Assembly: GCA_009783695.1 (NCBI GenBank)
Contig: WRCY01000017.1
Coordinates: 1-37,960, forward strand
DNA: 37,960 nucleotides
Source: Oscillospiraceae bacterium
Lineage (GTDB): Bacteria > Bacillota > Clostridia > Oscillospirales > Ruminococcaceae
Direction of reading: 5' to 3'
The notes below the pieces were generated by a model. The model ran no database searches. It worked only from the letters and a program-made list of their open reading frames with translations, and was not told the DNA's origin. Below, piece by piece: positions 1,491 through 37,960 of the stretch (its first letter is position 1; each line of letters begins with the position of its first letter). The position numbers were made by a program, and so were the translations under genes.

Positions 1491-1556
1491 ATATCAGAGT
1501 TTTTTATACCGCATTGATGAAGAAGGGACTTATTTAAAATATGGCAGAGCAGAATA

Positions 1557-4958: not shown

Positions 4959-6449
4959 TTAGGTCAAATAGCGATTGATGATTTTTATTAACAATTCGTT
5001 CAGCTTTTCAACGTCGTACTCGCCTATAGTAGGCTCAACGTGACGCCCTGTGCTGACCCCCGAATGCCCGGTTACGAACGTGTAGGTTCCGCCTGTGGTG
5101 ATTGCGAGGGTTCGCATGAGAAACTCGGTTTCCGTGCAGCCGTCGCTCGCGAGCAGCGGAATAATTCTTATTCCTTTTTCTGCGGCTTCCATAGCAAGGC
5201 GGGACATTGCGGGTACTGTCGTCTGGTTATGGTGCGGGGGTGCGTCAAGCACGATGAACATCAGCTTTACGGAATCCGCTTCCCATTCATGCTCGTTAAT
5301 GGCGTTTTGCAGCGCCGCGTCCACAGCTTCGGGGCGGTCGCCGCCGCCTGCTGCGCTCTGCGCGTTGAGGTTTCTGACCTGCGCGGCTATGTCGGTGGAG
5401 AAAGTGAACGGGCGAACCACATATTCATCGCCTTTGTCGCGGTAAAAATTAACGCTTAGACGAATAGGCAGGTTAGCGTTATTGCGGCTTACGTTGTTTA
5501 TGACGTCATCAAGTTCGGTTTGCAAATAGTGCAGCTCGTCGCCCATAGAGCCCGTGGTGTCAATTACGAACATGAGGTCTAACTTCAACTGCGCGGGGCT
5601 TCCCGCGCCCTCGAAGACGAATGTTGTTTCGCTTTCGGAAACGGAAACCTGCGTCTCGCCGTTAACGTTTACGGTGATAGTCGTCGGCGAATTATTGTCG
5701 GGGAAGCTGCCGAAGCCGCGGAAGACATACGCCATTCCCTCGTGGTCGGTGATTGCCTTAAACTGCGTGTTTGTGAGTATTACTTCCGCGCCGCGGACAG
5801 GGTTGTTGTTTTCATCAACAACCTTAACTACGGTGCGGTTGGCGGCGAAAAGCTGCCAGTGGCCGGCGAACTCGCGGAACTGTTCGTTCTGTCCCATTAA
5901 ATTTGACCAGAAGCTCCAATTCCTATTGTCGTTCCACTCACCCGCTGTAAGAAGTCCTGCCTGAGGAATAAGGCTGGGCTGCTGCTGTGTGACGGAAAAC
6001 GCCGGAGCGAACGGCATTTCACCGTAATACTCGCCGTCAGTATCACTGCTCCAAAGCATATCGACAGCAGGCGTAGGCGGCGAAAGAGCGCTCAGCTCGC
6101 CATCTCCGCCCCGCGGAGATTCGTCAGGAGCAGAGTCGGATACGGCTGTACCGGAAACGCGCTCAGGTTCGGCAGGGGCTGCGGCATCACCTGCCGCGCC
6201 GGCATCCGACGGCGGTACTCCTTCATAAAAGTCGCCGGAGGAAAATGATACTGAATCCGTTGAATCGTCACCTGCGGATTCAAAGGAATCTGCGGCTCCC
6301 GTAAAGTTTCGCAAGCCCGAATCCGACTCTATAGGCGCGGGGTCTGTTGAATTATCATTTCCGCCGGTTTCCGCGGTGTTGTTTTCCGAAGCGCACGCGC
6401 CAATTAACAGCGAGAAAATAAGCAAAGCTATAAGTAATAATTTTTTCAT
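4959..6449 (-). CDS. Lipoprotein with a von Willebrand factor A domain
   Basis: A 496-residue surface lipoprotein. MKKLLLIALLIFSLLIGAC is a signal peptide ending in a lipobox, with Cys19 as the lipid-anchored residue. A long low-complexity acidic, Ser/Pro/Ala-rich linker follows to about residue 140. Next comes a small beta domain (VVKVVDENNNPVRGAEVILTN) resembling carboxypeptidase-regulatory or Big-like folds, then a VWA domain from about 290 to the end. The MIDAS metal site is complete in its first motif (Asp297-Thr-Thr-Gly-Ser301), with a later DAPPHHN loop. VWA domains bind ligands through a metal ion; the partner here is unknown. I chose the ATG at 6449 because GGTGA precedes it and the signal peptide starts there; the frame is open 22 codons upstream through a repeat element. 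Confidence 0.85.
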   Translation of the reverse strand: MKKLLLIALLIFSLLIGACASENNTAETGGNDNSTDPAPIESDSGLRNFTGAADSFESAGDDSTDSVSFSSGDFYEGVPPSDAGAAGDAAAPAEPERVSGTAVSDSAPDESPRGGDGELSALSPPTPAVDMLWSSDTDGEYYGEMPFAPAFSVTQQQPSLIPQAGLLTAGEWNDNRNWSFWSNLMGQNEQFREFAGHWQLFAANRTVVKVVDENNNPVRGAEVILTNTQFKAITDHEGMAYVFRGFGSFPDNNSPTTITVNVNGETQVSVSESETTFVFEGAGSPAQLKLDLMFVIDTTGSMGDELHYLQTELDDVINNVSRNNANLPIRLSVNFYRDKGDEYVVRPFTFSTDIAAQVRNLNAQSAAGGGDRPEAVDAALQNAINEHEWEADSVKLMFIVLDAPPHHNQTTVPAMSRLAMEAAEKGIRIIPLLASDGCTETEFLMRTLAITTGGTYTFVTGHSGVSTGRHVEPTIGEYDVEKLNELLIKIINRYLT

Positions 6450-6528
6450 GTTTTCACCATGTCCTTTCTTCACAAACGAATAATGTAAACAACGTTTTCC
6501 CCGATTCAATGACATTCGTTTTCAACCT
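6450..6528 (-). repeat. Dispersed leader element, copy before the VWA lipoprotein
   Basis: Read on the minus strand it contains ATTGAATCGGGGAAAACG, then 36 nt from the GGGG an AAGGAC box directly before the lipoprotein start. AACGAATGT and ACATTATTCGTT can pair around the core. This matches the other copies in the window (7563, 21422, 21975, 22118, 28278, 28360, 30581, 33174, 37946) in core, spacing and position relative to a start codon. Confidence 0.75.
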
Positions 6529-6584
6529 TAAGCTCCTTTCAAAATTGTCTTGTTAATCATAAAACAATATATGTAATATAAAGG

Positions 6585-7531: not shown

Positions 7532-7562
7532 AGGAATAGTTCATAATTAAACGTTCATAAGC

Positions 7563-7613
7563 GGTGAAAATGTCGTTTAAAAAGCAGTTGCGAGAGATGG
7601 ACTTGTTGAAAAT
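7563..7613 (+). repeat. Dispersed leader element, copy before the WalJ-like gene
   Basis: GGTGAAAATGTCGTTTAAA is followed 35 nt from its first G by TGGACTTGTTGAAAAT, directly before the ATG at 7614. It is closest to the copy before remA (33174), matching it at most positions across the whole element. The core has GGTG where others have GGGG and the Shine-Dalgarno reads GATGGAC, so this is a diverged copy. Confidence 0.65.
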
Positions 7614-11400: not shown

Positions 11401-11853
11401 TCACAACAATTTTTTACTTGCTCTATAAAATTTACTTTGCAAAATAAGTGTAATAATATGAAGAATAAAAACAATTGCTCCAATCCACGTAATTGTATAA
11501 ATACCTCCATAAATCAGCCATGAAAGCGGCGAAGCAACTATACAAATAGAAAGAAATATGCAAATTAAAAATGAATACTTCACATCGTTTTTATTTATAC
11601 GGATTACTGTTTTGACAACAAGCATTATTAAGACAATAATTGATAGCAGTGCAGTAATAATGGGAAACCAATTGCCATAACTTACTTCAAAGTAAGAATG
11701 TACAGACCGACTGGATAAAACTTTTCGACTTAACGATTGGTTTACTACACCATAAGGCAACAGCATCAAAATTATTGTTGTTGCAATACAACATAAAGAT
11801 AAGTATATCAACTTTGTTGTATTTTTTTCCTTTTTTGCACTTGTTTTAACCAC
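11401..11853 (-). CDS. Four-helix membrane protein, candidate immunity protein
   Basis: About 150 residues with a basic N-terminus (VKTSAKKEKNTTK) and four predicted membrane helices: LIYLSLCCIATTIILMLLPYG, WFPIITALLSIIVLIMLVV, YSFLICIFLSICIVASPLSW and ITWIGAIVFILHIITLIL. No family is recognised. I prefer the GTG at 11853, about eight bases after AAGGAGGGG; an ATG at 11874 is in frame but inside the ribosome-binding region. The gene overlaps the RHS toxin stop by eight bases, and the ribosome-binding site is encoded by the toxin's last codons (GRRGRRGG), so translation is coupled. Position immediately after a polymorphic toxin and AT-rich composition suggest an immunity role; this is inferred, not shown. 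Confidence 0.65.
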   Translation of the reverse strand: MVKTSAKKEKNTTKLIYLSLCCIATTIILMLLPYGVVNQSLSRKVLSSRSVHSYFEVSYGNWFPIITALLSIIVLIMLVVKTVIRINKNDVKYSFLICIFLSICIVASPLSWLIYGGIYTITWIGAIVFILHIITLILQSKFYRASKKLL

Positions 11854-14800
11854 CTCTTCTTCCCCTCCTTCCATCCCATGCGCTTATTGTTGTATTTGCC
11901 CAGAACATACCGTGGTCTACAGTATATGGTCTTCCTTGAATGTTAATATGTGTAGTCCTGTAATGAGTAGAGTTATTCATTATGATTGAACCTCTTTCAT
12001 CGCCATACTTACTACGTGTAGGTTCACCGAGTTGCCTCGCTATGGGGGTTTCATACTTTCTCAAATTAGCATTTTCCATGTTCATTTGTTCTCTGTCTAT
12101 ATTCCAAAACCATCGTGCGTTTATGTACGCATCTAATCCACCATCTAAATGTTGCGCCCCATGTCCCATTTCGTGAACCAAAGCCATTGCCGGACTCATA
12201 ACAGATGTTCCATCTTTCATGGTAAATCCAAGCTTTGGATTCCAATTTATTGTTCTTGTACCATAGTTATATATTGCGTTTTTATCGGTTGTAAAGTTGA
12301 TAATGAATACCTCTTCTGCATCATTTAACTTATTATAAAGGTCTCTAAATGCTTCGGACCCCTTTAAATACTCTATAGCACGGTTATATTCCGCCAGTGC
12401 CTTCTCATAATCTGCAACTGCTCTATTATATGTGGTGTCATTTCTAAAGTCATTTCTATTTGGTGGACCCACTATTTCTATTTTAAGTCCACTTGGGTCT
12501 CTCCACCTAATCGGATTATTGACACAATACGCATAAAGATTCAGCCCCTGCGGGTCATGGCGTATGATTCCCTGCATGCGCCAAAACGGGTCTTCGCTCA
12601 TAAACCTCCCCGTTCTCGGCTGATAGTGCCTGTTTCTGAGGTAGTACGTGCCATACTCAATAATCTCCGTGCCCGGTATGTAAGTCCGCAGGTTATGCAA
12701 ATGAACATTAGCCGCTGCCAACGCAGAATCCATACCAAGTAACCATGTAGACACGGTTATGCGCAGCATATTACCGCCTGTCAGCGTAAACTCGAGCTGC
12801 TCCGTAGCGTCCGCATTGAAAATCCAACCACCCGCATATCTGTCGTCTTCATAAAAGCGGATTTCTACTTGCTTGATAAAAAGCCAACCCTCAAACTCAA
12901 GCCCCAAATCCATCACGTAATCGCCCGCAGGTAGGTCCTCGATTGAGATTTCCCTTTGCTGGTTGACTTGGAATTTACCAGAGAAGCTACTATTACGATA
13001 ATAAGTGTCGAACTGGCTGAAAGTGTACCATTCATTGCCGCTCGTCACCGGCATGCTGTCAAAATACTCCCCGCCGTAGCGCCAGGGGTTGGGGTTGGCT
13101 TTCTCATAAAACCGTATATTTGACACATAGACATCATTTACCCCGCCATTTGCTGACCGCACGTCAAACTGCAGGATTGCATTATGCCACTCCTCGCCCT
13201 CGCTCAGAGTAATTTCTATATATGCGCTTTGGGTTGTGCCGCTGACGTCTATGTTATTCTTTGACTGCCATCTCGAATAATCGGAGCTTAACAAACCTAC
13301 CTGCAGATGTGAATTGCCTCCGGCTGTTTTATAATCAAATTCAAGTACATATGTCACATTTGGTTTTATTGGCAGCCAGTGTGTACAAGCCCATGAAAAA
13401 TTACTACTTTGAAGCACCAATGTGCCTTCGGGTGTGAAATTCGCTCCACTCGTCCAATAAGTTAGATTAGATAAGGGCATTGACCATTCGGTGTTGTGGT
13501 TGGCTTTCTCATAAAACTTGAAATCAGACACAAAAACATCATTAATCCCGCCGTCAATAGCGTAAACGTCAAGCTGCAGTACGGCATTCTGCCATTCATC
13601 GACTGCGTTCATTGTGATTTCTATTCGCGCGCGCCTCCTGGTCCCGTCCGGAATTAAATCCGTGCGGGCTACCCAGCGACTGCCGTCAGAGCTTATTAAA
13701 CCCGCTTTTAAGTACGAAATGCCGCCATTTGTCTGATAGTCGAACTCCAGGATATAAGTTACGTTTGGCTCCGTCGGCAGATAGTTTGAACATGCATAGG
13801 AAAACCCGCCGCCTTGAAGCTTTAACGTGTCTGCTGATGTAAATGTAACGCCGTTGTTCCTTGTCAGGTCTGATAATGCCAGGCTTAGCGGTTCCTGCGG
13901 TTTCCTCTCATTCCCAAACGCATCATAATCATAACTCTTAGTTACAACCCCCGCGGTGTTTGTCAGTTGCACAACATCGCCGTTCGCGTTGAAAAGGTAA
14001 TAGCTGCTCGGCGCGCCCGTGTCCGTCGACGAGCCGATGAGCCCGATTCCCCTAATATATTTTACCACACTGCTGCCCATCATGTCAAATGCGATGTTTG
14101 CGCCGTCCCAGATGTGCGTGGTGGTTACGCCGTTTGTGGTCTTGCTGCGGCGCAAGCCGTCGGGGTTATAGGTATGAGTGGTGGTCACGCCGTTTGTAGA
14201 AGCGCTCGTCATGCGGCCCCAGTTGTCATAGGCATAGGTCACCGCGCCGTCCGAGAGCTGGTTGCCGTTGCCGTCATAAGTGAAGTTCGTGGTTATGCCG
14301 TTCGTCAAGGTGCCTGTCAGGCGGTTGCTCAGGTCATAGGTGTAGGCGGTGGTGACGCCGTTGTTGTTCATGCCCGCGCGGTTGCCGCGGTTGTCGTAGG
14401 TGTAGGAGATTGTCAAAGGATTGGCAGCTCCGCTTTCTGCTTCCCGCGTTAACCTGCCTAAGCCGTCGCAGGTATAAGTGGTTGTTCTGCCCGTGTGGTC
14501 TGTTTTGGTGCGCTGGTTGCCGTCTAAGAAATAGGTGTAATCATATTGGGATATTGTCGCGCCGCCCCGGTGATTTCTGACCTGCGTAACCAAATTTGCG
14601 GGGTTGTAAGAGTAATTCGTAATTACACCGTTGCCGAGCGTAAGAGAAGCGCGGTTGCCGTTGGTGTCATAGGTGTAAGCAGCGGCGCGTGTGCCGTTTT
14701 CGTTTACGTCGGTTAAACGGTTTAAATTATCATAAATATAACTTGTAGCATGATATGTTACATTGTTAATTCTCGCCTGGAATGTCAAACGGTTTCCGCC

Positions 14801-17800
14801 GATGTCGTAAGTATAAACCTTGGTTGAGGATGATTCGTTTTGTACGATAAGGCGGCCGAGCTCGTCATAAGTGTTGGTTATTGATATATTGTTGCCCGAA
14901 ATGTTCCTCAGCTGCCCTGTTCGGGTATACGACTGCGTGATTACGTTAGCGGCGGTATTTGAACCTGCCTGCGTCCGTGTCAGTCTGCCCAGCCCATCGT
15001 ATTCATACGAGGTTGTAACTCCGTTGCGGTCTGTTTTTCTCGTGAGATTCCCTGCGAGGTTGTAGTTGAACGTCTCGGCACGCCCGAGGGCGTCGGTTAT
15101 GCGCGATACGTTGTTGTATTTGTCATAAGTGTAGGCTGTGCTTGCGCCGCCTGTAGTCTGCCCCGTCATGTTTCCGGCGGCGTCGTAGGCATAGGTTGTT
15201 CTAATCGCAACAGTGCTGCCGTTATAGCTGTCGGCCTGCGTAAGCCGGTTACGGTTGTTGTAGACATAGTCCGTCCGTGTCCATGTTGCCGCAGTTCCCG
15301 CCGCGTTGTTTTTTACCCGCTCGCGGGTTAAGTTGCTGTTATTGTCATAAGTATACTCTGTTTCCGCGAAGTGCGTAGTATTTCCTATACGCTCAAACGG
15401 CACGCTTTGCCTTGTCAGCCGCCCCAGGTTATCGTATTGAAACGTGGTCGTGTTACCCGCGGGGTCGGTAATACCCGTATTGCGCCCCAGCGCGTCATAT
15501 GCGTATACAACGGATTGGTTAAGTGTATTGGTTTCCTTTACGACGCGCCCTGCATGGTCGTACTGCCATCTTGCGGTGGGGTTGGGGAGGTTTCTTTCCC
15601 TGTCGAGCGCGGAACGATACTCAGTCATATTGCCTGTGTAATCATAGCTGTAGGTGTCAAAGTGTTCAATTCCGTCAAGAAAAGCACCCGTCTGCACTTG
15701 CTGTCCGAGATTGTTTACATAGCTTGTTGTTATTACATTGGGAGCATTGATGTCGCCTTGAATGATATTGAGCGTTCTGAACAAACCGTTCTGGATAGAA
15801 TACACATAGATTTCATTTACGATAATTGAGCCGTAGTATGTCAGCCCCTGCCTTGCGGTAACGTCCGTTACACGGGAGAGTTGGTCATATGTGTAGGTTG
15901 TATTGTTGTTATTAATCCGGTCTTCGCTTGTCCGCAAACGGGATAAACTATCATATACATTACGGCTCATGATTGTACCGTTTTCGTTGCCGTCCCTGAC
16001 TTCCGTAAGCAAGCCGAGCGGGTTATAGCGCGTGGTCGTTTGATTCCCGCGCTCGTCGGTAAACGTAACGTAGTTGTGCGTGTAGCTGCGCGCCCACTGC
16101 CGCATGGTGTTGTCGGGGTGCGTGACCCGGATAAGGTCGTTTCGGTCGTTGTATGCATAATTTGTTGCGTGGCCGCGCCCGTTCACGGCTCTGGTCATTC
16201 TGCCGCGGTTGTCATACTGGTACGACGATGTCACGCCGCCGGTGTTAACGGAAGAAAGATAAGCCCCGCGGTCATACCCGTATGTGGTCAGTATGCTGTT
16301 GCTCGTGTCATTGTCCCCGTTTATGTATCTTCTTTCGGTGAGGATGTTCCCGAAGCTGTCGTAGGTCCAGTCGGTGCGGGCTTTTTGCACGCCGTTAACC
16401 AGGACGGTTTCGGTAATGGGGTGGCGGTTTGTGGGGTCGAGGGTGTAATTTATCGTGATGGTCGTGTTTGCGTCTTGCTTGTAGCTGACGGAGGTAAGTT
16501 GATTATATATAGCATTATAGGTATATGTCGTCTTGTGTTCTGTATTGTTCGCATTGCCGCCCGCGAGGGGAGAAAACGAAGCCGTGACATTTCCGCGATT
16601 ATCATATTCGAGGCGTTCTATCGTTTCTAAGAATAAATGATTGTTGGTGTGTTCATAAGACTTTGTGGTAATTAGAGTAGGATTTCTGTCGGTATATCCA
16701 AACTGCTTGTTTGAAACATTTAATGAACCATGTTTCGTATCAATTTCTCTCGTGAGGTGCCGGTTGTTGAATGTATGCTGCTCGGAAATGCCAGAGATGG
16801 GCGTGGTCACAGTCGTGTGGTAGGTAAAGTTGTTGGGTAAATCTGCGGGATTTTGGTGCTGCGGCCAGCCGGAGTTGTTATTGGCAGAATAAGTGTAGTT
16901 CTTCCTGTTGGTTTGCACTCCGCTGACAACGTCATGACGGGATGTGATTCGATATACTCTCTGCAAACCGGAACGCCCGAGATTTTTATCTACTGTCTCG
17001 TAATTGAATGCGGTAGTGAACCCCGTCGGGTGCGAAATTGATGTTAGGTTCACGAACAGATTTTCTGCTCTGAAATTAGGAATTGTGAGATCTTTTCTAA
17101 CGGCATTAACAAAAGCGCTGTTTATGTTATATGTATAGAGCGTCTGTATGCCCATGGGGTCTGTGTATGAAGTCAGATACCGGGGTGTTAAGGTTATGCC
17201 CAAGGTTTGTATCTGCGTACCGGTTACTATATTGTATTGCAACGATATATTATCCGGAAGCGACACGATTATACCGTTATTATTTTTGGCTATAGTCGTA
17301 ACTCTGCCCAGAGTGTCCGTGATTGTAATGGTATTCATGGATTGAACCCATTCTCCGTTCACCCAGGAAGACGCAAGACTGTGAACAAGATGTATCGCGT
17401 TGCCGTATCTGTCACGTATTTCAACAAGCCTACCGCTACGGTCAAAGAATTCGGTACGCCCGTCTTTGTATTTCAGCTCGTATCGCTCCGTGCTATACCT
17501 ATACCTTAAAGATAGCTCCGTTCTTGAATAACCCGCTACGATAAAAGTATCTATGTAGCCGTAGTCCGTATCTAATAATCTATATGCAAGCGAACGCCCG
17601 TCAGCGAGATGAAGAACATTTCCTTGAATGGACGAGAACATGAAGCTCCAGCCGTGCCCGAGACCGTGAAATCTGTTCAGATGATTGTAGTCTTCCATGG
17701 TTGTTGCAAAAACGCCTGGAGCACTCACCGTCCCCGGATTACCCACATTTGCACTGTCCGAGTCATAACGTCTGCCGATTACCAAGTCCAAACCGTTTCT

Positions 17801-18775
17801 GCCGGGAAGCACATAGTCCACGGTTTCATAGACAAGCCCGCCCGTGTTCAGGTTTATTCTTTCAGCTGTGTTAAAATCGTAGTTATACGGTGCATCAAAC
17901 TCTTGCATAGGCAAGAGCTGACCGGAGCTGCCGGACAGGGCGACGATACCGGTCAGCATGGCGGCGTCGGTCAGCTGCTCCATCTGTAGGAAGCCGAGCC
18001 GGTTTTCTATTGAAAACTCAACCAAAACATCGGCGCAGACGCCCAGGTCATCGGCTAACAGTAAAAAGTTTTGCTCGCTGAGCACGGAAAGGCTGATTGT
18101 CAGTTCCGGTGAAATTTCCTGTGAGATTCTTCCCGGAAAGCCCTGTGCGACATTTAACGGGATTTCCTGTGAGAACCCGAGCGAGGATTCTGTAGCCTGC
18201 ACAGGGATTACGATTTCGGTTGCTACCAGTGCCGGTTCCGGCAGCAGGCTGTGTATGTCGGTTTCAAGCCTTAAACTCAGCCCGTATATCAAAACCGCCT
18301 GCCCCAGGGAACAGCCCTCGAGCAGAAGCCCGCGCAGCAGCAAGTCAATCTCACTGCCGTACAGTTCTTCATCGAGGAAGCCGAGATACAGTTCTAACGC
18401 CTCTTCTCCCTCAAAATTAAATAATTCATCAAAGGCGCTTTCTTGCCCTTGCAGCTCTGCGCGTTCGGCGCGCGGGATGTATTCGTAGCTTTCAATGTCA
18501 AACGCTTGCATCGCCTGAAAGGACTGCGCCCCGGAAAAGGAAGCCGTATGTACGGGCGAGTTATCCGCCCATGTAGCGTCGCCGAGGTATGCGCCCTCCG
18601 GAAGACCCGAATCTATTTCATCAAGCAAGCTAAAATCTGCTTCTCCGATAAATGTGTCGAAAGCAGCGCTTTCATCATGAGCAGTCCTTAACTCAGATGA
18701 AGCGAAGCCTTGAAGATTAGTGCCTGTGACCAGCATTACTATTGCTAAAATTAGTGATGATGTGCGTTTATACAT
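11846..18775 (-). CDS. Secreted RHS/YD-repeat polymorphic toxin with metallopeptidase tip
   Basis: A 2309-residue WapA-like protein. Domains in order: signal peptide (residues 1 to about 26); a helical acidic region to about 290; a DUF6531-like RHS entry (LNTGGLVYETVDYVLPGRNG); many YD repeats (about 550-1620, for example YTYDNRGNR and TYDGLGRLTR) that form the shell; two tandem jelly-roll-like modules of about 130 residues (1625-1755 and 1757-1890); a third beta module (1897-2030); and the RHS core end YYLRNRHYQPRTGRFMSEDP through DPSGL (2093-2097). The tip (2098-2309) has the zinc motif His2201-Glu-Met-Gly-His2205-Gly-Ala-Gln-His2209 and a PIARQLGEPTRSKYGD segment. Together these resemble M91 (NleD-like) metallopeptidases found on RHS tips. 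The tip DNA is much more AT-rich than the repeats. The target is unknown. Confidence 0.88.
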   Translation of the reverse strand: MYKRTSSLILAIVMLVTGTNLQGFASSELRTAHDESAAFDTFIGEADFSLLDEIDSGLPEGAYLGDATWADNSPVHTASFSGAQSFQAMQAFDIESYEYIPRAERAELQGQESAFDELFNFEGEEALELYLGFLDEELYGSEIDLLLRGLLLEGCSLGQAVLIYGLSLRLETDIHSLLPEPALVATEIVIPVQATESSLGFSQEIPLNVAQGFPGRISQEISPELTISLSVLSEQNFLLLADDLGVCADVLVEFSIENRLGFLQMEQLTDAAMLTGIVALSGSSGQLLPMQEFDAPYNYDFNTAERINLNTGGLVYETVDYVLPGRNGLDLVIGRRYDSDSANVGNPGTVSAPGVFATTMEDYNHLNRFHGLGHGWSFMFSSIQGNVLHLADGRSLAYRLLDTDYGYIDTFIVAGYSRTELSLRYRYSTERYELKYKDGRTEFFDRSGRLVEIRDRYGNAIHLVHSLASSWVNGEWVQSMNTITITDTLGRVTTIAKNNNGIIVSLPDNISLQYNIVTGTQIQTLGITLTPRYLTSYTDPMGIQTLYTYNINSAFVNAVRKDLTIPNFRAENLFVNLTSISHPTGFTTAFNYETVDKNLGRSGLQRVYRITSRHDVVSGVQTNRKNYTYSANNNSGWPQHQNPADLPNNFTYHTTVTTPISGISEQHTFNNRHLTREIDTKHGSLNVSNKQFGYTDRNPTLITTKSYEHTNNHLFLETIERLEYDNRGNVTASFSPLAGGNANNTEHKTTYTYNAIYNQLTSVSYKQDANTTITINYTLDPTNRHPITETVLVNGVQKARTDWTYDSFGNILTERRYINGDNDTSNSILTTYGYDRGAYLSSVNTGGVTSSYQYDNRGRMTRAVNGRGHATNYAYNDRNDLIRVTHPDNTMRQWARSYTHNYVTFTDERGNQTTTRYNPLGLLTEVRDGNENGTIMSRNVYDSLSRLRTSEDRINNNNTTYTYDQLSRVTDVTARQGLTYYGSIIVNEIYVYSIQNGLFRTLNIIQGDINAPNVITTSYVNNLGQQVQTGAFLDGIEHFDTYSYDYTGNMTEYRSALDRERNLPNPTARWQYDHAGRVVKETNTLNQSVVYAYDALGRNTGITDPAGNTTTFQYDNLGRLTRQSVPFERIGNTTHFAETEYTYDNNSNLTRERVKNNAAGTAATWTRTDYVYNNRNRLTQADSYNGSTVAIRTTYAYDAAGNMTGQTTGGASTAYTYDKYNNVSRITDALGRAETFNYNLAGNLTRKTDRNGVTTSYEYDGLGRLTRTQAGSNTAANVITQSYTRTGQLRNISGNNISITNTYDELGRLIVQNESSSTKVYTYDIGGNRLTFQARINNVTYHATSYIYDNLNRLTDVNENGTRAAAYTYDTNGNRASLTLGNGVITNYSYNPANLVTQVRNHRGGATISQYDYTYFLDGNQRTKTDHTGRTTTYTCDGLGRLTREAESGAANPLTISYTYDNRGNRAGMNNNGVTTAYTYDLSNRLTGTLTNGITTNFTYDGNGNQLSDGAVTYAYDNWGRMTSASTNGVTTTHTYNPDGLRRSKTTNGVTTTHIWDGANIAFDMMGSSVVKYIRGIGLIGSSTDTGAPSSYYLFNANGDVVQLTNTAGVVTKSYDYDAFGNERKPQEPLSLALSDLTRNNGVTFTSADTLKLQGGGFSYACSNYLPTEPNVTYILEFDYQTNGGISYLKAGLISSDGSRWVARTDLIPDGTRRRARIEITMNAVDEWQNAVLQLDVYAIDGGINDVFVSDFKFYEKANHNTEWSMPLSNLTYWTSGANFTPEGTLVLQSSNFSWACTHWLPIKPNVTYVLEFDYKTAGGNSHLQVGLLSSDYSRWQSKNNIDVSGTTQSAYIEITLSEGEEWHNAILQFDVRSANGGVNDVYVSNIRFYEKANPNPWRYGGEYFDSMPVTSGNEWYTFSQFDTYYRNSSFSGKFQVNQQREISIEDLPAGDYVMDLGLEFEGWLFIKQVEIRFYEDDRYAGGWIFNADATEQLEFTLTGGNMLRITVSTWLLGMDSALAAANVHLHNLRTYIPGTEIIEYGTYYLRNRHYQPRTGRFMSEDPFWRMQGIIRHDPQGLNLYAYCVNNPIRWRDPSGLKIEIVGPPNRNDFRNDTTYNRAVADYEKALAEYNRAIEYLKGSEAFRDLYNKLNDAEEVFIINFTTDKNAIYNYGTRTINWNPKLGFTMKDGTSVMSPAMALVHEMGHGAQHLDGGLDAYINARWFWNIDREQMNMENANLRKYETPIARQLGEPTRSKYGDERGSIIMNNSTHYRTTHINIQGRPYTVDHGMFWANTTISAWDGRRGRRGG

Positions 18776-19115: not shown

Positions 19116-20213
19116 TTATAATATTTTTTCATGAATATGTTTAATTATCCTCTGTTCGCTGTCCGTAATGGTTTTAACCGGACAGCTTTTGGATAATTTT
19201 TCAAAATCTGCGAACCTTTCGGCGGCTTTGGTCGTGTTCTTATTAACAAGCAGTTTGTATGCGTAAAGCAAGCGGGAATAAACCAAAATACCGTCTTTGC
19301 TTTTTAAGTGCTCAATCAAGTCGTCGCCGCAAATACGCGCGATTAACTCACGGTCGCAGCCGTCCATGATTACGCAGAACAGGAAGTCGGCGCGTACTGC
19401 ATATTTTAAATAATCGGTTAATTCAAGAGCGGTTTTTATATTATAATTCATTTCCGCCAGCTGCCGCGCTTCAAGAAATCTGCCCTCGTCCATAAGACGC
19501 GAGTAGGCGAGGGCTGTAATTCCGCTGTAGACAAGCGGTTTCGCGGCAAATTCTTCCTCGGTGGGCAGCTCAAACCATTCATAGGGCATATCCCACATGT
19601 TTGTTCCGGATAAATGCAGTCCGTAAATCCGATGTGAGTTTATAAATAATCTGCGCGCCTTTTCATCATCCTTGAGTTGTTTTATTATATTAAAAGGATT
19701 CCCCGGGAGCTTCGGAATTGAGATGAGAAAAAAGAATTCCTTTGCGGCGAGAATGATTAACACTCCCGTTATCCAGAAACTTTTCGGCAGAAGCACGGCG
19801 AGAATGGCATATATCGCCGTCAAGGCAATGCTTACATACACAAAGCCGCATAACCACAGCTTCGGGGATATATTTTCCGGCGGCATCATGTAAACAGGCT
19901 CGGCAAGCTCTATTGCAACCGCTTTGCGCCGTTTTAATTTTCCGTCTTCCTTGATGAACAGCGTACCGAAAATCTTCAGGTAAATCAATTCACAGCCGTA
20001 TAGTTTTTGTATAAGCGCAGAAATTGCGGCAGTCAGAATCACTGTAACAAACGAGCCCCAGAAGAATACCGCAATCCCGAAGTTTATGTACGAAATCACC
20101 AAATAAAACGTATTTGTTTCCTCCCCCGAGTAAGCAAAATACTGCATAATAAAGCAGAAAAACAGAAATGCCAGAAGCCGTAATAATCCCTTTCTTGACC
20201 ATATGCTTTGCAT
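19116..20213 (-). CDS. Unrecognised multi-pass membrane protein with C-terminal helical domain
   Basis: About 365 residues. The N-terminal half has four or five hydrophobic segments: LLRLLAFLFFCFIMQYFAY, INFGIAVFFWGSFVTVILTAAI, LWLCGFVYVSIALTAIYAILAVLLP and FWITGVLIILAAKEFFFLI. The C-terminal half (from about 195) is soluble and helical, with TPR-like pairs such as EARQLAEMNYNIKTALELTDYL. The layout is reminiscent of membrane proteins with a cytoplasmic repeat domain, but there is no HExxH protease motif and no family I can name. Start: ATG at 20213 behind AAAGGACTG. An upstream GTG at 20237 would read MKKGLNGN through the ribosome-binding site, so I reject it. It follows the amidohydrolase gene with a short leader-element tail between them. 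Confidence 0.7.
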   Translation of the reverse strand: MQSIWSRKGLLRLLAFLFFCFIMQYFAYSGEETNTFYLVISYINFGIAVFFWGSFVTVILTAAISALIQKLYGCELIYLKIFGTLFIKEDGKLKRRKAVAIELAEPVYMMPPENISPKLWLCGFVYVSIALTAIYAILAVLLPKSFWITGVLIILAAKEFFFLISIPKLPGNPFNIIKQLKDDEKARRLFINSHRIYGLHLSGTNMWDMPYEWFELPTEEEFAAKPLVYSGITALAYSRLMDEGRFLEARQLAEMNYNIKTALELTDYLKYAVRADFLFCVIMDGCDRELIARICGDDLIEHLKSKDGILVYSRLLYAYKLLVNKNTTKAAERFADFEKLSKSCPVKTITDSEQRIIKHIHEKIL

Positions 20214-20236
20214 ATTTCCATTCAGTCCTTTCTTCA

Positions 20237-21421
20237 CTAATGCGGGATGAGAACATCATTACGACAAATTATTTTCCCGTCAATCACAACAAGCTTCGGG
20301 TCTTTCATAAAGTCGTAGAATTTTCCGTCCCGCTCAAGCAGCACGAAATCCGCGTCTTTCCCGACTTCTATGCTGCCTACGCGGTCAGCAATTTTGCAGA
20401 TTTTTGCAGCGTTAATGGTAATCGCGCGCAGCGCCTCGTCCTCGGGGAGTCCGCCTTTAACAGCGAGTCCCGCTGTAAGCGGCAGATACTGAACAGGTGT
20501 GACGGGATGGTCGGTGCAGAGCGCAACCGGCACGCCCGCCGCATGAAGCTTCGCAGCTGTGTCGATGCGCAGATTTGCGAGCTCCGGCTTGCTTCGTTCG
20601 CAAATAATAGGACCGACTATGCATGACGCGCCTTCTTCCTTTAATTCCCCGGAAATAATTCCCCCCTCGGTCGCGTGTACAATAACGTAGCCGAAGCCGA
20701 ACTCTTTTGCGAGCCGGATTGCGGTAAAAATATCGTCGGCGCGGTGACAGTGAATGTGCGCGTTGATTTCCCCTCGGAGCAGCGGCATAAGCGCCTCGTT
20801 TTTAATATCGTATTCCGGAGGGTCGGTATCTTTGGATTTTTTTGATTTATCAAGCTGCTCCATATAGCGTTTAGCCTTGTAAAGCTGCTCGCGGATTATT
20901 GCTGCGACAGCCATACGTGTGGTGGGGGTTTCGTCGCGGTCGTTGTAGCAGGTTTTCGGGTTTTCGCCGAGCGCGAACTTCAAAGCCATCGGCGACTTCA
21001 CAATCATCTTGTCGATTCTTTGCGAGCCTGCGGTTTTCATCACGAGCAGCTCGCCGCCCATAGGGTTCGCGCTGCCCACTCCCGTAACAACGCAGGTTAC
21101 GCCAGCTTTTGCGGCTTCCTCAAAAGAAAAGTCGCGCGGGTTTATCATGTCGATTGCACGCAGGTGCGGCATTGCGGGGTCTGTGATTTCGTTTGCGTCC
21201 GTGCCCTCGAAGCCGAGCCCGTTCTCAAATACCCCCAGGTGGCTGTGCGCATCGATGAATCCCGGACAGAGCGTGTGACCCTTGGCGTCGATGTCGTCAT
21301 TGCCGGTTGTTGCAGGTTTTCCGGGGCTCACTATTGTGATTTTTCCGTTTTTGAATTCAACGTAGCCGTTTTCTATATCGGCTCCGTTCATAGTTTTAAT
21401 TCTTGCATTATAAATGACCAT
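20237..21421 (-). CDS. Amidohydrolase-family protein (imidazolonepropionase-like)
   Basis: A 394-residue metal-dependent hydrolase of the amidohydrolase superfamily. The N-terminal beta domain ends with the metal motif GFIDAHSHLG. Later elements are EINAHIHCHRADDI (second His pair), VIVHATEGG, and ALCTDHPVTPV with the conserved catalytic Asp. A C-terminal segment, TINAAKICKIADRVGSIEVGKDADFVLLE, is typical of the family. Members cleave C-N bonds in cyclic amides or deaminate rings; the substrate here cannot be read from sequence. Start: ATG at 21421, behind the AAAGGACTT box of a leader element. A GTG at 21445 (MKKGLNEK) would be within that box, so I reject it. The gene lies 31 bases after the shikimate kinase stop, in the same operon. 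Confidence 0.85.
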   Translation of the reverse strand: MVIYNARIKTMNGADIENGYVEFKNGKITIVSPGKPATTGNDDIDAKGHTLCPGFIDAHSHLGVFENGLGFEGTDANEITDPAMPHLRAIDMINPRDFSFEEAAKAGVTCVVTGVGSANPMGGELLVMKTAGSQRIDKMIVKSPMALKFALGENPKTCYNDRDETPTTRMAVAAIIREQLYKAKRYMEQLDKSKKSKDTDPPEYDIKNEALMPLLRGEINAHIHCHRADDIFTAIRLAKEFGFGYVIVHATEGGIISGELKEEGASCIVGPIICERSKPELANLRIDTAAKLHAAGVPVALCTDHPVTPVQYLPLTAGLAVKGGLPEDEALRAITINAAKICKIADRVGSIEVGKDADFVLLERDGKFYDFMKDPKLVVIDGKIICRNDVLIPH

Positions 21422-21476
21422 TTTTTCATTAAGTCCTTTCTTCACTAATTTATCACGGAAGTATCGTTTTCCCCGT
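21422..21476 (-). repeat. Dispersed leader element overlapping the end of aroK
   Basis: On the minus strand GAAACGGGGAAAACGATACT runs through the last codons of the shikimate kinase gene. It is followed, 36 nt from the GGGG, by AAGGACTTAATG before the amidohydrolase start. The element therefore supplies both the C-terminal residues (AETGKTILP) of one protein and the ribosome-binding site of the next. Confidence 0.7.
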
Positions 21477-21944
21477 TTCAGCCATTATTAGTTTTAAACT
21501 TTCCTCTTCTCCTTTAACTATATAATCCGCGACATTTCTGTAATGCGGCAGGCGTGAGTTATATAATTCAAAAAGCCCTTCTTTGGTTTTGTTCTCAGCA
21601 AGCGGGCGCCTATGTAAACCGTCGATTTTAATGCGTTTGCAACATACTTCAAAAGGAGTGTCAATAAAAATCACGACCGCATTTTCCTTTGCGTATTTTG
21701 CAGTTTCGGGAGTTTTAAGTGCGCCTCCGCCAAGCGAAACAAGAGGAACATTAAGTTCTTTCAGTGCCGCGAGTTCAAGCTCACGGAAATACTGCTCGCT
21801 GTACTTCACGAAGATTTCCGCGATTTCAATTCCCTTGAGTCTTACAATATACTCGTCGAGGTCAATAAAATCAAGCCCCGATTTTTTCGCGATATAAGAC
21901 TTTCCGCAGCCCATGAAGCCGTATAGGTAAATAGGTTTTATCAT
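21453..21944 (-). CDS. aroK: Shikimate kinase
   Basis: Phosphorylates shikimate at the 3-OH with ATP, the fifth step of the chorismate (aromatic amino acid) pathway, in the cytoplasm. The 163-residue protein has usual length and all family landmarks: Walker A GFMGCGKSYIAKK, DLDEYI (shikimate-binding Asp), FRELELAAL (shikimate-binding Arg-Glu), GGGAL, the LID region LHRRPLAENK and RLPHYRNVADYIV. First gene of a minus-strand operon with a TTGACA promoter at 22077-22082. Its last codons lie inside a leader element. It is not next to other shikimate-pathway genes in this window. Confidence 0.93.
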   Translation of the reverse strand: MIKPIYLYGFMGCGKSYIAKKSGLDFIDLDEYIVRLKGIEIAEIFVKYSEQYFRELELAALKELNVPLVSLGGGALKTPETAKYAKENAVVIFIDTPFEVCCKRIKIDGLHRRPLAENKTKEGLFELYNSRLPHYRNVADYIVKGEEESLKLIMAETGKTILP

Positions 21945-21974: not shown

Positions 21975-22047
21975 AAGTTTGAAAATAATACAATTGAATC
22001 GGGGAAAATGTTGTTTTCATGATTCAGTTGTGAAAAAGGACTTAATG
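21975..22047 (+). repeat. Dispersed leader element, orphan copy with full hairpin
   Basis: The best-preserved copy. AAGTTTG lies at 21975-21981. CAATTGAATC (21991-22000) pairs with GATTCAGTTG (22021-22030) over ten bases with one wobble. Inside, GAAAA (22004-22008) pairs with TTTTC (22014-22018). AAAGGACTTAATG follows at 22035-22047. The ATG opens only a six-codon frame, and the copy lies between the aroK promoter and aroK, so it would be transcribed mainly as antisense. It appears to have no downstream gene of its own. Confidence 0.75.
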
Positions 22048-22053
22048 AAAATA

Positions 22054-22082
22054 AATTTACCATAAAAAAGCAGTTTTGTCAA
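22054..22082 (-). promoter_or_regulatory. aroK operon promoter
   Basis: On the minus strand TTGACA (22082-22077), 17 bases, TAAATT (22059-22054). Its -35 box adjoins that of the divergent lysozyme promoter, making the perfect palindrome TGTCAAGTTGACA (22077-22089). Confidence 0.7.
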
Positions 22083-22083
22083 G

Positions 22084-22112
22084 TTGACATTAAAAGTAAA
22101 TCATGTTAATAT
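22084..22112 (+). promoter_or_regulatory. Lysozyme gene promoter
   Basis: TTGACA (22084-22089), 17 bases, TAATAT (22107-22112). The expected transcript start near 22119 coincides with the 5' boundary (AAGTTT, 22118) of the leader element, so the element would begin the mRNA. Confidence 0.75.
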
Positions 22113-22117
22113 TAAAG

Positions 22118-22189
22118 AAGTTTAAAATAAAACAATTGAATCGGGGAAATGTTGTTTTATATATCCTTTGTTAAGTAAAGCACTTAACG
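22118..22189 (+). repeat. Dispersed leader element, copy before the GH25 lysozyme
   Basis: AAGTTTAAAATAAAAC, CAATTGAATCGGGGAAAT and TGTTGTTTT match the copy at 21975. The 3' half has drifted: the hairpin's second arm is TATATCCTTTG, and the Shine-Dalgarno box reads AAAGCACTTAACG, with ATG changed to ACG. The lysozyme gene instead uses a separate GGAGGT 30 bases further on, which fits decay of this copy's ribosome-binding function. Confidence 0.7.
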
Positions 22190-22219
22190 AAAATAAATAT
22201 AAAAATACCGGAGGTACAA

Positions 22220-23668
22220 ATGAAAAAAACTATAAAAAAGGCAATTACAATCATTACTTTAACCGCGCTGCTGATTACATATCTTCCTTTAATATCATCA
22301 GCTTCATCGGTACAGATGATACAGTGGGACGGGAAAACCCCGCTTGAGCAGGGTGCTTCGTATATAATAGATTCTGATGTCTGGCTCCGCGAAAATTTCA
22401 CAGTCCCCGAGGGCGTGATTGTAACTATAACAGACGGCGGGAACCTGCTGCTCACGCGGGAGATGAAGCTGACGGTCAGAGGTACATTAATAATAAGGCC
22501 CGGAGGCACGCTCGAAATAAGAAAGGCGGAGCTGAGCCTAAGAGATTCGGGAACAATTGTTTCATTCGGCAGAATTCTGCAGTATATGGAAACCACCTTA
22601 AATATAATCGGCGGGAGCGTGAATCTTCACGATGGGAGCGAGTTTATCAGCTCGAGCAGCCTGCTTGTATACCCGTCCGGCGAGATTCATGCGGCGGGCG
22701 CGTTGATGCTTACGGCAAGCAATGAAACGGTTATAACCGGCGCTGTCGAAATAGCGGAAAGCGGTGTCATAAGTGCCGACGGCTCATTTTCCGTGACCCC
22801 GAACGGCAGGGTCGTAAACAACGGGCAGTTCACAATTCATAAAGACAGCACGCTCATTAACAGCGGCATTTTCACAGTGAACGAGGGCGCAAAGCTTTCA
22901 AAGTTCGGCTCGCTTGTAAACACGACGGGCAGTATTTTCATAGACAGAAACCGGACAGATGGGAGCGGCAGGCGAATCCCGCCGGAGAAAATGACCGCCG
23001 CACTGCTCGAGGACGAGCCGCTGGTAGAACTGCGCGGGATTGACGTTTCGCACTGGCAGTTTACAATTGACTGGGAGAAGGTCGCGGCAAGCGGAATTGA
23101 TTTCGCTATTATCCGCGCCGCCCGCGGACATCACAGCGAAGCTTATCCAATGATAGAGGACACGCGTTTCCGCGAAAATATAGAGGGCGCGCTGGAGAAT
23201 AACATAGACGTAGGGGTTTATTTCTACAGTTACGCCCGCAGCGCCGAGGAGGCGAGAGGGGAAGCCGAATTTTTCATCAGCGTCATTGAGGAATACGAGA
23301 TTACATATCCGGTGGTTTTCGATATAGAGGAGCCTTTTCATGAAAAGATGAGTGCGGATTTGATTACCGCGATTACGGAAGCGTTTTTCGAGGTGCTCAT
23401 AGAAAATGGATATTACCCGATGCTTTACTCAAACAAGAATTTTCTTGTGAATGTTTTCGATGAGCGGATTTCGGATACATATGCGGTCTGGCTGGCACAG
23501 TGGGCGTCCGAGCCTACATACGAGGGAGAGTTCCAAATTTGGCAGTATACTGCGAAAGGCAGGGTGTCCGGTATAAACGGTGAAGTAGACCTTAACATCT
23601 CGTACATAGATTTTCCGGAGGTTTTGAGAAGACACGGACTGAATCGGCTGAAACCAATACTTATTTAA
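22220..23668 (+). CDS. Secreted GH25 lysozyme with an N-terminal beta-repeat domain
   Basis: A 482-residue exported cell-wall hydrolase. Signal peptide: MKKTIKKAITIITLTALLIT with cleavage near residue 28 (SSASS). Residues about 40-255 consist of short beta repeats (GTLIIRPGGTLEI, GSVNLHDGSEFISSSSLLV, GRVVNNGQFTIHKDSTLIN) that look like a beta-solenoid, perhaps for surface binding. The C-terminal GH25 muramidase domain starts at Gly273-Ile-Asp275-Val-Ser-His-Trp-Gln and has the FDIEE motif (Asp368, Glu370) and a DVNIS-like end (EVDLNISYID). It hydrolyses the N-acetylmuramic acid beta-1,4 bond. GGAGGT lies five to ten bases before the ATG. It may serve wall turnover or competition; the N-terminal solenoid on a GH25 enzyme is unusual. 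Confidence 0.88.
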   Translation: MKKTIKKAITIITLTALLITYLPLISSASSVQMIQWDGKTPLEQGASYIIDSDVWLRENFTVPEGVIVTITDGGNLLLTREMKLTVRGTLIIRPGGTLEIRKAELSLRDSGTIVSFGRILQYMETTLNIIGGSVNLHDGSEFISSSSLLVYPSGEIHAAGALMLTASNETVITGAVEIAESGVISADGSFSVTPNGRVVNNGQFTIHKDSTLINSGIFTVNEGAKLSKFGSLVNTTGSIFIDRNRTDGSGRRIPPEKMTAALLEDEPLVELRGIDVSHWQFTIDWEKVAASGIDFAIIRAARGHHSEAYPMIEDTRFRENIEGALENNIDVGVYFYSYARSAEEARGEAEFFISVIEEYEITYPVVFDIEEPFHEKMSADLITAITEAFFEVLIENGYYPMLYSNKNFLVNVFDERISDTYAVWLAQWASEPTYEGEFQIWQYTAKGRVSGINGEVDLNISYIDFPEVLRRHGLNRLKPILI

Positions 23669-28277: not shown

Positions 28278-28348
28278 GTTTTAATAAGTCCTTTCTATAA
28301 CAGCAAGGAATGAAAAGATTCGTTTTCCCCGATTTTGTTTGATATATT
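28278..28348 (-). repeat. Dispersed leader element, proximal copy before glgB
   Basis: On the minus strand AAAATCGGGGAAAACGAATC, then TTTTC pairing with GAAAA, then AGAAAGGACTTATT 37 nt after the GGGG and directly before the glgB ATG at 28277. It is an almost exact repeat of the copy at 28360-28425, offset by 83 bases. Confidence 0.75.
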
Positions 28349-28359
28349 TTATAATGACA

Positions 28360-28425
28360 TATTTTAATAAGTCCTTTCTATAACAGCAAGGAATAAAAAG
28401 ATTCGTTTTCCCCGGTTTTGTTTCA
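28360..28425 (-). repeat. Dispersed leader element, distal copy before glgB
   Basis: On the minus strand AAACCGGGGAAAACGAATC, TTTTT, then AGAAAGGACTTATTAAAA. Compared with the proximal copy it has only a few substitutions. Its Shine-Dalgarno box is not followed by a gene start; AAAATATGTC opens only a short frame. Confidence 0.75.
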
Positions 28426-28480
28426 TATATTTTTATACTTTATGAACCTCTTCTGGAAAATATTTCATGCTATTATGCTG

Positions 28481-30580: not shown

Positions 30581-30654
30581 AAGTTTGAAAATAAAACAAC
30601 TGAATCGGCGAAAATGCTGTTTTCATGATTCATTTGTGAAGAAAGGACTTAATG
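30581..30654 (+). repeat. Dispersed leader element before the phosphoribosyltransferase gene
   Basis: AAGTTTGAAAATAAAAC (30581-30597), CAACTGAATC (30597-30606) pairing with GATTCATTTG (30627-30636) at nine of ten positions, GAAAA with TTTTC inside, then GAAGAAAGGACTTAATG. It matches the copy at 21975 at nearly every base. Just before it, AAGTTTAAAAGGACATAT (30561-30578) looks like the two ends of another copy joined with the middle deleted. Confidence 0.75.
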
Positions 30655-31302
30655 AAAATAATTATGGAAGCTCGTAAAATCGAAATAATATCAAACCGCA
30701 ACAGTAACGTGAAAACCTGCATAATTCCCGGGCATTTCGTCACGGGGCACTCTCATGTGAACTATTATGTCGATATGCACAGTCTTAAGCGGCAGTTTAA
30801 AATGTCCAAGGAAGCCGCGAAAGTATTAGCCTCGGATTTTTCAAACACGCCTGTGGATACAATCATCTGCCTCGAGGGGACGCAGGTCATAGGCGCGTTT
30901 TTAGCGGAGGGGCTGGCGGAAGATTTTCCGCACTCCGTAAACTCCGGAGCGGATATAAACGTAATTACGCCCGAACTTAATTCCAGCAATCAAATGATTT
31001 TCCGCGACGATTCCGAGAGTGTGATTTGGAACAAAAACGTTTTAGTTTTGATTTCATCGGCTTCAACAGGCAGAACGGTAGAAGCATGCCTCGAGTGTCT
31101 GACTTATTACAGCGGGAATTTGGCGGGTGTAGCCGCGCTGTTCAGTGCTGCCGGCGAGCTCGGCGGCATACCTGTGAGCGCGGTTTTTCACAAGAGCGAC
31201 TTGCCGGATTATGCAAGCTTCCCGCAGTCGGAGTGCCCGATGTGCCGCGATAAAATAAAAGTTGACGCGCTTATAAATGACCACGGGTATTCAAAAGTAT
31301 AG
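30652..31302 (+). CDS. Phosphoribosyltransferase-like protein (orotate type) with altered PRPP loop
   Basis: A 216-residue protein resembling type I phosphoribosyltransferases, especially orotate-type proteins seen in Clostridia. It has a YYVDMHSLKRQF segment, a TIICLEGTQVIGAFLAEGL segment in place of the pyrophosphate loop, and VLVLISSASTGRTVEACLECL where the PRPP-binding motif normally reads VDD-x-x-TTG. The two acidic residues of that motif are Ser-Ser here, so catalysis is doubtful and a ligand-sensing role is possible. The C-terminus has CPMC, perhaps half a metal site. Start: either ATG at 30652, four bases after the leader element's AAAGGA, or ATG at 30664. It is not next to pyr genes. 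Confidence 0.65.
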   Translation: MKIIMEARKIEIISNRNSNVKTCIIPGHFVTGHSHVNYYVDMHSLKRQFKMSKEAAKVLASDFSNTPVDTIICLEGTQVIGAFLAEGLAEDFPHSVNSGADINVITPELNSSNQMIFRDDSESVIWNKNVLVLISSASTGRTVEACLECLTYYSGNLAGVAALFSAAGELGGIPVSAVFHKSDLPDYASFPQSECPMCRDKIKVDALINDHGYSKV

Positions 31303-33129: not shown

Positions 33130-33173
33130 TATACATTATGGTTAAAAAGGGGATAAAATCAGAAACGAACACC

Positions 33174-33232
33174 TTATAAACCGGGGAAAATGCCGTTTAA
33201 AGAATTATACTGCGAAAAAGGACATATTGAAA
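33174..33232 (+). repeat. Dispersed leader element before remA
   Basis: AAACCGGGGAAAATGCCG, then 35 nt from the GGGG, AAAAAGGACATATTGAAA directly before the ATG. TATAA (33175-33179) can pair with TTATA (33205-33209) around the core: a different stem sequence at the same place as in the other copies. Confidence 0.7.
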
Positions 33233-33475
33233 ATGGAACTTTTAAATATCGGCTACGGGAACGCCATTAATCCGAAAAGAGTCGTCGCCGCCGTTAGTGC
33301 GGATTCCGCGCCCGCAAAGCGCATGGTCAGCGCCGCAAGAGAAAAAAACGCGGTCGTGGACGCCTCCTGCGGTAAAAAAACGCGTACGGTTTTCATTATG
33401 GACAGCGGGCATATAATTTTGTCGGCAAAGAATATAAAAGGTTTTACGGGGATAGAAGAGGCAGATGATGAATAA
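33233..33475 (+). CDS. remA: RemA-family extracellular matrix regulator (DUF370)
   Basis: An 80-residue DNA-binding protein of the RemA family, which in Bacillus activates biofilm matrix and osmoprotection genes. MELLNIGYGNAINPKRVVAAVSADSAPAKRM, the middle GKKTRTVFIMDSGHIILSA and the C-terminal acid tail are diagnostic. Start: ATG at 33233 behind AAGGAC; a TTG at 33227 would add two residues. It overlaps gmk by about 11 bases, the conserved Firmicutes order remA-gmk. Confidence 0.93.
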   Translation: MELLNIGYGNAINPKRVVAAVSADSAPAKRMVSAAREKNAVVDASCGKKTRTVFIMDSGHIILSAKNIKGFTGIEEADDE

Positions 33476-37945: not shown

Positions 37946-37960
37946 GGGGAAAACGAAGCA
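37946..37960 (+). repeat. Dispersed leader element, 5' part cut by the window edge
   Basis: GGGGAAAACGAAGCA begins eight bases after the fmt stop and matches the core of the other copies. The rest, including any Shine-Dalgarno box and the next gene, is beyond the window. Confidence 0.5.

Follow-up and report, generated by a model that had tools for sequence, protein, structure and literature searches.

Why should one short sequence stand in front of many genes of unrelated function? The question is raised by a 37,960-nt contig (C17), here called the window, of a 2.23-Mb draft genome, composed of 97 contigs and 94% complete (G000, the own genome). An initial annotation had described in it a dispersed leader element, and had suggested, among other readings, a repeat family that spreads ribosome-binding sites. 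This suggestion is borne out by the position of the copies, by displaced Shine-Dalgarno (SD) sequences and by empty sites in relatives: with a probability of roughly 0.8, judging from the sequences, the element is an interspersed repeat of about 80 bp, apparently non-coding, which spreads between the native SD and the start codon, in the orientation of the gene.

Copies within the window

All window copies listed in the initial annotation were recovered by sequence profiles, some of them weakly. A copy on the minus strand at 20296-20214, and perhaps a weak one near 1502-1539, are to be added. The copies are reported below, each with its coordinates and strand; "first" and "iterated" indicate the profile used.

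1502..1539, plus strand: weak 3' part of a copy, with an ATG behind opening a 17-codon ORF; E 0.1, later 0.0015
6450..6529, minus strand: element copy, ATG at 6449-6447, displaced native SD AAAGGAG at 6533-6539; clear in first
7559..7613, plus strand: weak, decayed copy before the ATG at 7614; E 0.05
20214..20296, minus strand: divergent copy, ATG at 20213-20211, overlapping the 3' end of the upstream ORF; E 3e-7
21422..21501, minus strand: element copy, ATG at 21421-21419, before a presumably amidohydrolase-like gene (named by reading); clear in first
21975..22056, plus strand: orphan copy, without a start codon behind; clear in first
22118..22198, plus strand: decayed copy, with AAAGCA in place of AAAGGA; clear in first
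28278..28361, minus strand: second, gene-proximal unit of a tandem array, ATG at 28277-28275; E 8e-5 in first, clear in iterated
28362..28440, minus strand: first unit of the same two-unit array, GAGGT just upstream; E 1e-3 in first, clear in iterated
30581..30663, plus strand: element copy of type A, ATG at 30664-30666; clear in first
33156..33232, plus strand: divergent copy, ATG at 33233-33235, AAAAAGGGG just upstream; moderate, E 6e-4
37946..37960, plus strand: core of one more copy, truncated where the contig ends

The range that headed the initial annotation, 21975..22189, is atypical: no gene start follows its first copy, and the second has ATA where the ATG is expected, with a native GGAGG, and then an ATG at 22220, downstream. 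The gene behind the tandem array is, as we take it from reading, glycogen-branching-enzyme-like. An ORF at 21453-21944 on the minus strand, presumably shikimate-kinase-like (again by reading), has its last 49 nt inside the copy at 21422..21501, so that its C-terminus seems to be encoded by the element. Three mechanically derived ORFs, 4959-6515 (minus), 30652-31302 (plus) and 19116-20237 (minus), start inside the element or before its end; their likely ATGs are those at 6449, 30664 and 20213, and gene callers may therefore misplace these starts. Elsewhere in the window, a 2309-aa ORF (11846-18775, minus strand) has a start resembling a signal peptide.

Abundance in the genome

The search was extended to 437,960 bases of the own genome, including the window and parts of contigs C1 to C4, about one fifth of the total. 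An iterated profile produced 194 matches at E<0.01 in this sample; its Markov-shuffled counterpart gave a single match, at E 0.24. By a broader profile, with E up to 0.05, 192 units were located at 132 sites: 93 hold a single unit, 23 two, 11 three and 5 four. Extrapolation to the whole genome leads to 976 units at 671 sites. These counts are probably low, because the repeat breaks short-read assembly: contig ends fall inside copies both in the window (37946-37960) and in several contigs of the related genome G012. The dispersed leader is genuine, and far commoner than the window shows. When 20-40 kb samples of 13 genomes were each compared with themselves, dense short repeats appeared in the own genome, G006 and G020, and regions were also flagged in G014, G026, G017 and G023.

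Position relative to genes

Genes were predicted by a simple custom caller, which found 416 in the sample. The end of the site lies within -9 to +7 nt of a same-strand gene start for 113 of the 132 sites, against 2.1% of random intergenic points. A same-strand gene start follows 114 sites, so that 27% of the called genes (114 of 416) have an element. By contrast, only 4 of the 132 sites have their 5' end against a start on the opposite strand. Convergent spacers make up 4,381 of the 43,849 intergenic bases (10%), yet contain a single site.

For 18 of the 132 sites no called gene start is found behind: 7 of them have an ATG just behind, 11 do not. Two of the seven ATGs open plausible small genes, of 122 and 37 codons, the latter presumably ribosomal protein L36, by reading. 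Good copies among the 18 include the one in the convergent spacer (L046, C1 24475, E 2e-17), which precedes a terminator-like hairpin, one whose two neighbours both lie on the other strand (L047, C1 53752, E 6e-14), and the window copy at 21975. One site is a weak match inside a coding region.

Of the 114 element genes, 98 follow an upstream neighbour on their own strand. The element is not more frequent at divergent starts (16 of 72 genes with a divergent neighbour, against 98 of 336 with a same-strand one), which indicates that it does not work as a promoter device. In the ribosomal-protein operon at 60-76 kb of C1, twelve genes have an element; others are, as read from their N-termini, gyrA, dnaN, ftsZ and csrA. 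The identity of csrA is also indicated by a PF02599 match at the same place, the only CsrA of the genome; csrA is itself preceded by a two-unit array (C3 18773, in L058). A metabolite riboswitch had already been considered unlikely, and this holds. The downstream genes are unrelated, and no Rfam family is matched at its gathering score in the window and five loci.

A preference for certain second codons, as part of a target motif, was rejected, ATGAA being found in 34% of 107 cases against 30% of 179. Among the 46 best-matching copies ATGAA reaches 43%, and ATGA 74% against 50%, which may reflect a mild preference. On the upstream side, 93 sites have a same-strand stop inside the element or at most 200 nt upstream: in 27 of them the element contains this stop codon wholly or in part, and for 5 sites it is provided by the TGA at the 5' end of the unit.

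Displaced ribosome-binding sites and their proposed replacement

If the element had entered between SD and start codon, the native SD should be found just upstream of it. In the own genome, an SD motif of at least 5 nt is present there in 11 of the 20 arrays with a best-matching first unit, in 25 of 51 at E<1e-10 and in 39 of 114 overall. The controls gave 4 of 36 flanks in convergent spacers and 11% of shuffled flanks; the motif is found in 49% of 226 genes without the element, before the first start of the ORF. The lower frequency beside divergent copies fits the decay of an unused SD. The native SD most often lies 4 nt before the element, while in other genes it lies 8 nt before the start. 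Copies of type A have 2-4 extra nt between element and ATG; taken together, these distances indicate that the insertion point in the own genome seems to be a few bases before the ATG. Judged by these flanks, the element inserts between the SD and the start codon.

A ribosome-binding site within the element, AAAGGACTT, had been proposed from the start, and is sustained by the distribution of its AAAGGA motif. Of 77 single units, 66 preserve it unaltered, as do 35 of 37 array units next to the gene; among internal units, 29 of 58 do (terminal versus internal, p=3e-6); the core motif shows no significant difference. AAAGGA is best kept next to the gene, as expected if it serves as the gene's SD.

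The insertion would thus push the native SD some 80 nt away from the gene; its role would pass to the element's own AAAGGA, located at the 3' end, so that downstream translation could continue; stops near the 5' end (TTTGA, AATAA) might close a reading frame coming from upstream. A replacement SD, combined with such stops, would make insertions tolerable even in ribosomal-protein operons, and these would be hard to lose later, because the displaced native SD would decay.

Structure of the unit and of its arrays

The ability of the units to fold was evaluated on several levels. RNAalifold, applied to 67 copies, predicted no pairs, hence no common structure. Among ten representatives, three reach a folding z lower than -2: type A (-3.2), another type from the own genome (-2.6) and the form found in G010 (-2.5); a fourth reaches -1.98, and the youngest form, from G012, scores +0.33. 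For type A, the main subfamily, the covariation score is 0.091 against 0.079 in shuffled alignments, with 7 of 500 shuffles as high and slid structures not exceeding 0.063; 81% of cells are paired, and 17 cells carry double changes (9.9 when shuffled, 14-32 when slid). The outer stem noted in the initial annotation is therefore present in one subfamily, while absent as a common structure of the 67 copies, and the conserved structure it was taken to suggest has some, weak, support from the fold of the main subfamily and none family-wide. The annotation had recognised no described family; Rfam gave no match at gathering score for the window and five loci, and a search with 331 bases, at E up to 10, gave three matches, all far under the cut-off.

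Inspection by eye revealed no terminal inverted repeats: when the 5' end, AAGTTTGAAA, is compared with the reverse complement of the 3' end, ATTTTCATTAAG, the tips are unmatched. Subterminal AAGTTT and GGACTT can pair in type A. No target-site duplication was demonstrated; an ATG follows the copy and A(A/T)G is found at its 5' end, which might be left over from a duplicated ATG. At some tandem junctions AAAAT-ATG-TTTGA stands in place of AAAAT-AAG-TTTGA (C2 at 6.8-7.0 kb; C1 near 42 and 116 kb, reverse strand), a hint that ATG may once have been present at both ends of the element.

In arrays the units are spaced by 68-92 nt. Adjacent units are more alike than random pairs, with a median identity of 0.84 against 0.65; identities of at least 0.9 are found in 20 of 60 adjacent pairs and in 1 of 397 random ones. 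This indicates that arrays grow largely by local duplication.

Occurrence in related genomes

Sixty genomes, 36 of the same genus and 24 from other families, were searched by a sequence-only model with strict filters and at most 77 candidates per genome; at least 6 were matched, every one of them in the genus and none outside it. Subfamilies are species-specific, and nearly identical within a species. A pattern scan of named genomes found at least 44 stretches, which, among the matches listed, all belong to Oscillospiraceae MAGs, presumably from termite guts.

The youngest family examined is that of G012, analyzed on sequence pieces for the best of 120 scored matches and for the matches in named genomes. 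Of 33 distinct copies, identical at 72 or more of 80 positions, 27 have an ATG at offset 0; of the other six, two have ATA or ACG at the same offset, one is followed by the next unit and three by contig ends. Behind the 27 exact copies, 24 ORFs have at least 81 codons and three have 6-21. A native SD of at least 5 nt, located 3-9 nt before the element, was counted manually in 18 of the 29 copies with a usable native flank.

A second, related form, found in G010 with 26 matches, is 87 bp long and includes a strong hairpin, CCATGCCGC/GCGGCATGG; a further, partial match there consists of the first 20 bases only. At the 20 loci looked at (L174, L175-L193), ATG follows the element in 19 and CTG in one; 18 of the 19 ATGs open ORFs of at least 74 codons, the last one an ORF of 38. 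Paired changes in the hairpin were noted by eye, on an alignment (A2) of 15 sequences including 10 of the 20 G010 copies. The hairpin follows AAAGGA in the unit, so the SD may span it to reach the AUG. The second form matches 10 of 71 genomes of the genus; of five copies looked at in other genomes, three end at an ATG and two do not.

Empty sites and orthologous loci

Comparisons of orthologous loci, made between species rather than strains, yielded 39 pairs discordant for the element. In 7 of them the flanks are similar, by eye, on both sides of the insertion; in the remaining ones the upstream sequence is not alike. The differences go in both directions: the own genome is empty and the relative filled in JAITFZ (88% protein identity) and G020 (90%), while the own genome is filled and the relative empty at four JAITFZ loci (91, 88, 71 and 61%) and one G020 locus (80%). 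Orthologous empty sites read SD, spacer, ATG. At an L14-like gene, the G006 member had been scored as empty and actually has the second form, a case which shows that absence calls from one profile overstate the differences. Before ruvA an element is present in the own genome, and the second form in G010; in G023, G017, G061 and others, a ruvC-like end runs directly into SD and ATG, and some relatives have another upstream gene. At several loci, the ruvA start among them, genes keep their neighbours whether the site is filled or empty.

The presence of the element in relatives is reported below, for orthologues of own genes with an element versus those of other own genes; many of these loci had been picked for holding an element.

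G006: 5/14 versus 0/14
G010: 0/6 versus 0/6
G014: 0/3 versus 0/6
G020: 1/3 versus 1/6
G012: 1/1 versus none
G003: 0/1 versus none
JAITFV: 3/6 versus 1/12
JAITFZ: 1/10 versus 4/17

As a whole, the initial reading of the element is partly supported. The location between native SD and start codon, the empty sites in relatives and the species-specific subfamilies go beyond it.

Search for a mobilizing machinery

As in MITEs, many near-identical copies, precise insertion and empty sites were found. Candidate enzymes were sought in draft genomes, 76-100% complete, 12 of them in the case of the Y1 transposase and of reverse transcriptase. The Y1 transposase (PF01797; TnpA-REP), characteristic of the REP/RAYT class, was not found in the drafts of the own genome, G012, G006 and G010; it was detected only in G020, by one match just over the cut-off, and G014. 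Reverse transcriptase (PF00078) is present in G012, G017, G023 and G014, and TnpB (PF07282) in G014 only, neither being found in the own genome. IS110 (PF01548) exceeds the cut-off in G006, G020, G010 and G017, lies below it in G068, and was found neither in the own genome nor in G012. No match was obtained to UPF0236, which we take to be the family of the TnGBS, ISLre2 and ISKra4 transposases, the control being equally silent. Neither half copies nor a larger element with the same ends were found in the 438 kb, where the profiles of half length are of limited sensitivity, detecting 96 and 151 of the 192 units.

Alternative explanations

Targeted insertion is favoured by the constant offset from the ATG seen in the youngest family; the machinery responsible escaped all these searches. 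The element may then represent a new kind of mobile element, for which a dedicated system would recognise SD, spacer and ATG and insert the 80-bp unit exactly before the start codon, its own SD rebuilding the signal; this is a tentative reading, to which we give somewhat less than an even chance. If true, neutrality would be reached by replacing the interrupted signal, as introns and inteins reach it by splicing, and about one in four genes of the genome would have had its ribosome-binding site rewritten. Its main rival, which we consider unlikely, is an untargeted, MITE-like insertion followed by survivorship, copies being kept mainly where the native SD was displaced and a new one supplied. 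The better preservation of AAAGGA in terminal units would fit, as would the rarer upstream SDs beside divergent copies, making insertions hard to lose, and the few good copies away from starts, one of them in a convergent spacer. Survivorship is, however, difficult to reconcile with the youngest family, where the offset is the same in all 29 copies that run into non-element sequence (27 ATG, 2 ATA or ACG), and with convergent spacers, where insertion would be harmless and about 13 of the 132 sites would be expected from their intergenic share, instead of one.

A translation leader under the control of a protein (e.g. CsrA) or of a small RNA, and kept for this function, is a poorer candidate still, and coordinated control need not be invoked. 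CsrA is present, each unit has two GGA-containing motifs, the core CGGGGAAAACG is well conserved, and type A forms a good fold whose closing stem includes GGA, with some covariation; yet there is no common fold, the genes are unrelated and include essential ones, orthologues often differ in presence, and within the genus the models find matches in 6 of 36 and in 10 of 71 genomes. Leaders inherited from an ancestor and made uniform in each species through gene conversion would explain the likeness of adjacent units and the fact that some sites are common to G006, sharing being underestimated because one profile misses the second form. We regard this as very improbable, given the empty orthologous sites in both directions, the displaced native SDs and the sparse distribution in the genus. 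Marginally less credible is a leader peptide encoded by the repeat (TTG start, ...ETGKTLFSFFVGEERT): in the commonest length class, 35 of 38 distinct copies keep the TTG frame open and none keeps either of the other two open, but substitutions in that class are flat over codon positions (0.12, 0.145 and 0.136), 11 of 12 copies of the next length class have a stop, and other subfamilies stop early or shift frame. The location directly before start codons and the tandem units also recall the recombination sites of integron-like gene cassettes, the least probable of all these explanations: gene neighbours are kept in relatives without the element, also at the start of ruvA, and copies are found on both strands of several contigs and at housekeeping genes. 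An insertion between native SD and start codon is thus the reading preferred here.

Comparison with known repeats

Small interspersed repeats are common, and one of them, REP2 of Neisseria, carries a ribosome-binding site. The placement between SD and AUG, with takeover of ribosome binding, is unmatched among the literature titles: no title on such an element was found, although coverage of subscription papers was thin and the evidence is correspondingly weak. In the parts of the sources drawn on here, the nearest known case is that of the TAACTGA direct repeats of marine Beggiatoaceae, sets of which are located directly upstream of start codons, the largest class ending 1 nt before (PMC4679880). 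They have in common with the element the forward orientation, the lack of a functional pattern, the tandem copies and some overlap with the ends of upstream ORFs, and contain stop codons in all frames; they differ in being made of 7-bp units with little SD character, whereas the element is about 80 bp long, with AAAGGA and displaced native SDs (PMC4679880). BOX, RUP and SPRITE of Streptococcus pneumoniae are also small, interspersed and spread within one species, BOX with tandem modules; unlike the element, they have terminal inverted repeats, BOX and RUP have target duplications, and no fixed place at start codons is named in the portion of the report used (PMC3049150). Neisseria REP2 and Correia repeats are similarly short and influence downstream genes, REP2 being found upstream of pilC1, while Correia differs by its 26-bp inverted repeats and TA duplication (PMC3898611). 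That expression signals can be transposition targets is known from TnGBS, ISLre2 and ISKra4, which, in contrast to the element, target sigma-A promoters, 15-17 bp upstream of the -35 box, and encode a transposase (PMC3942029).

From the sequences it appears that even essential genes of these uncultured gut bacteria can remain functional despite such an insertion. The copies are natural, replicated experiments on moving and replacing a ribosome-binding site, and raise the question of what recognises a start codon and inserts there. They are also a warning, as gene callers may misplace both starts and upstream stops in these genomes.

Copies on viral-collection contigs

Named phage and plasmid collections contained no match to the element. 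Copies are present on two contigs of a viral collection, which indicates that mobile DNA seems to carry the element too; the genes behind them are, presumably, phage-tail-like and conjugative-element-like, by reading. On one of these contigs (L143, 3900-4100, minus strand), tandem units are found directly before the phage-tail-like gene.
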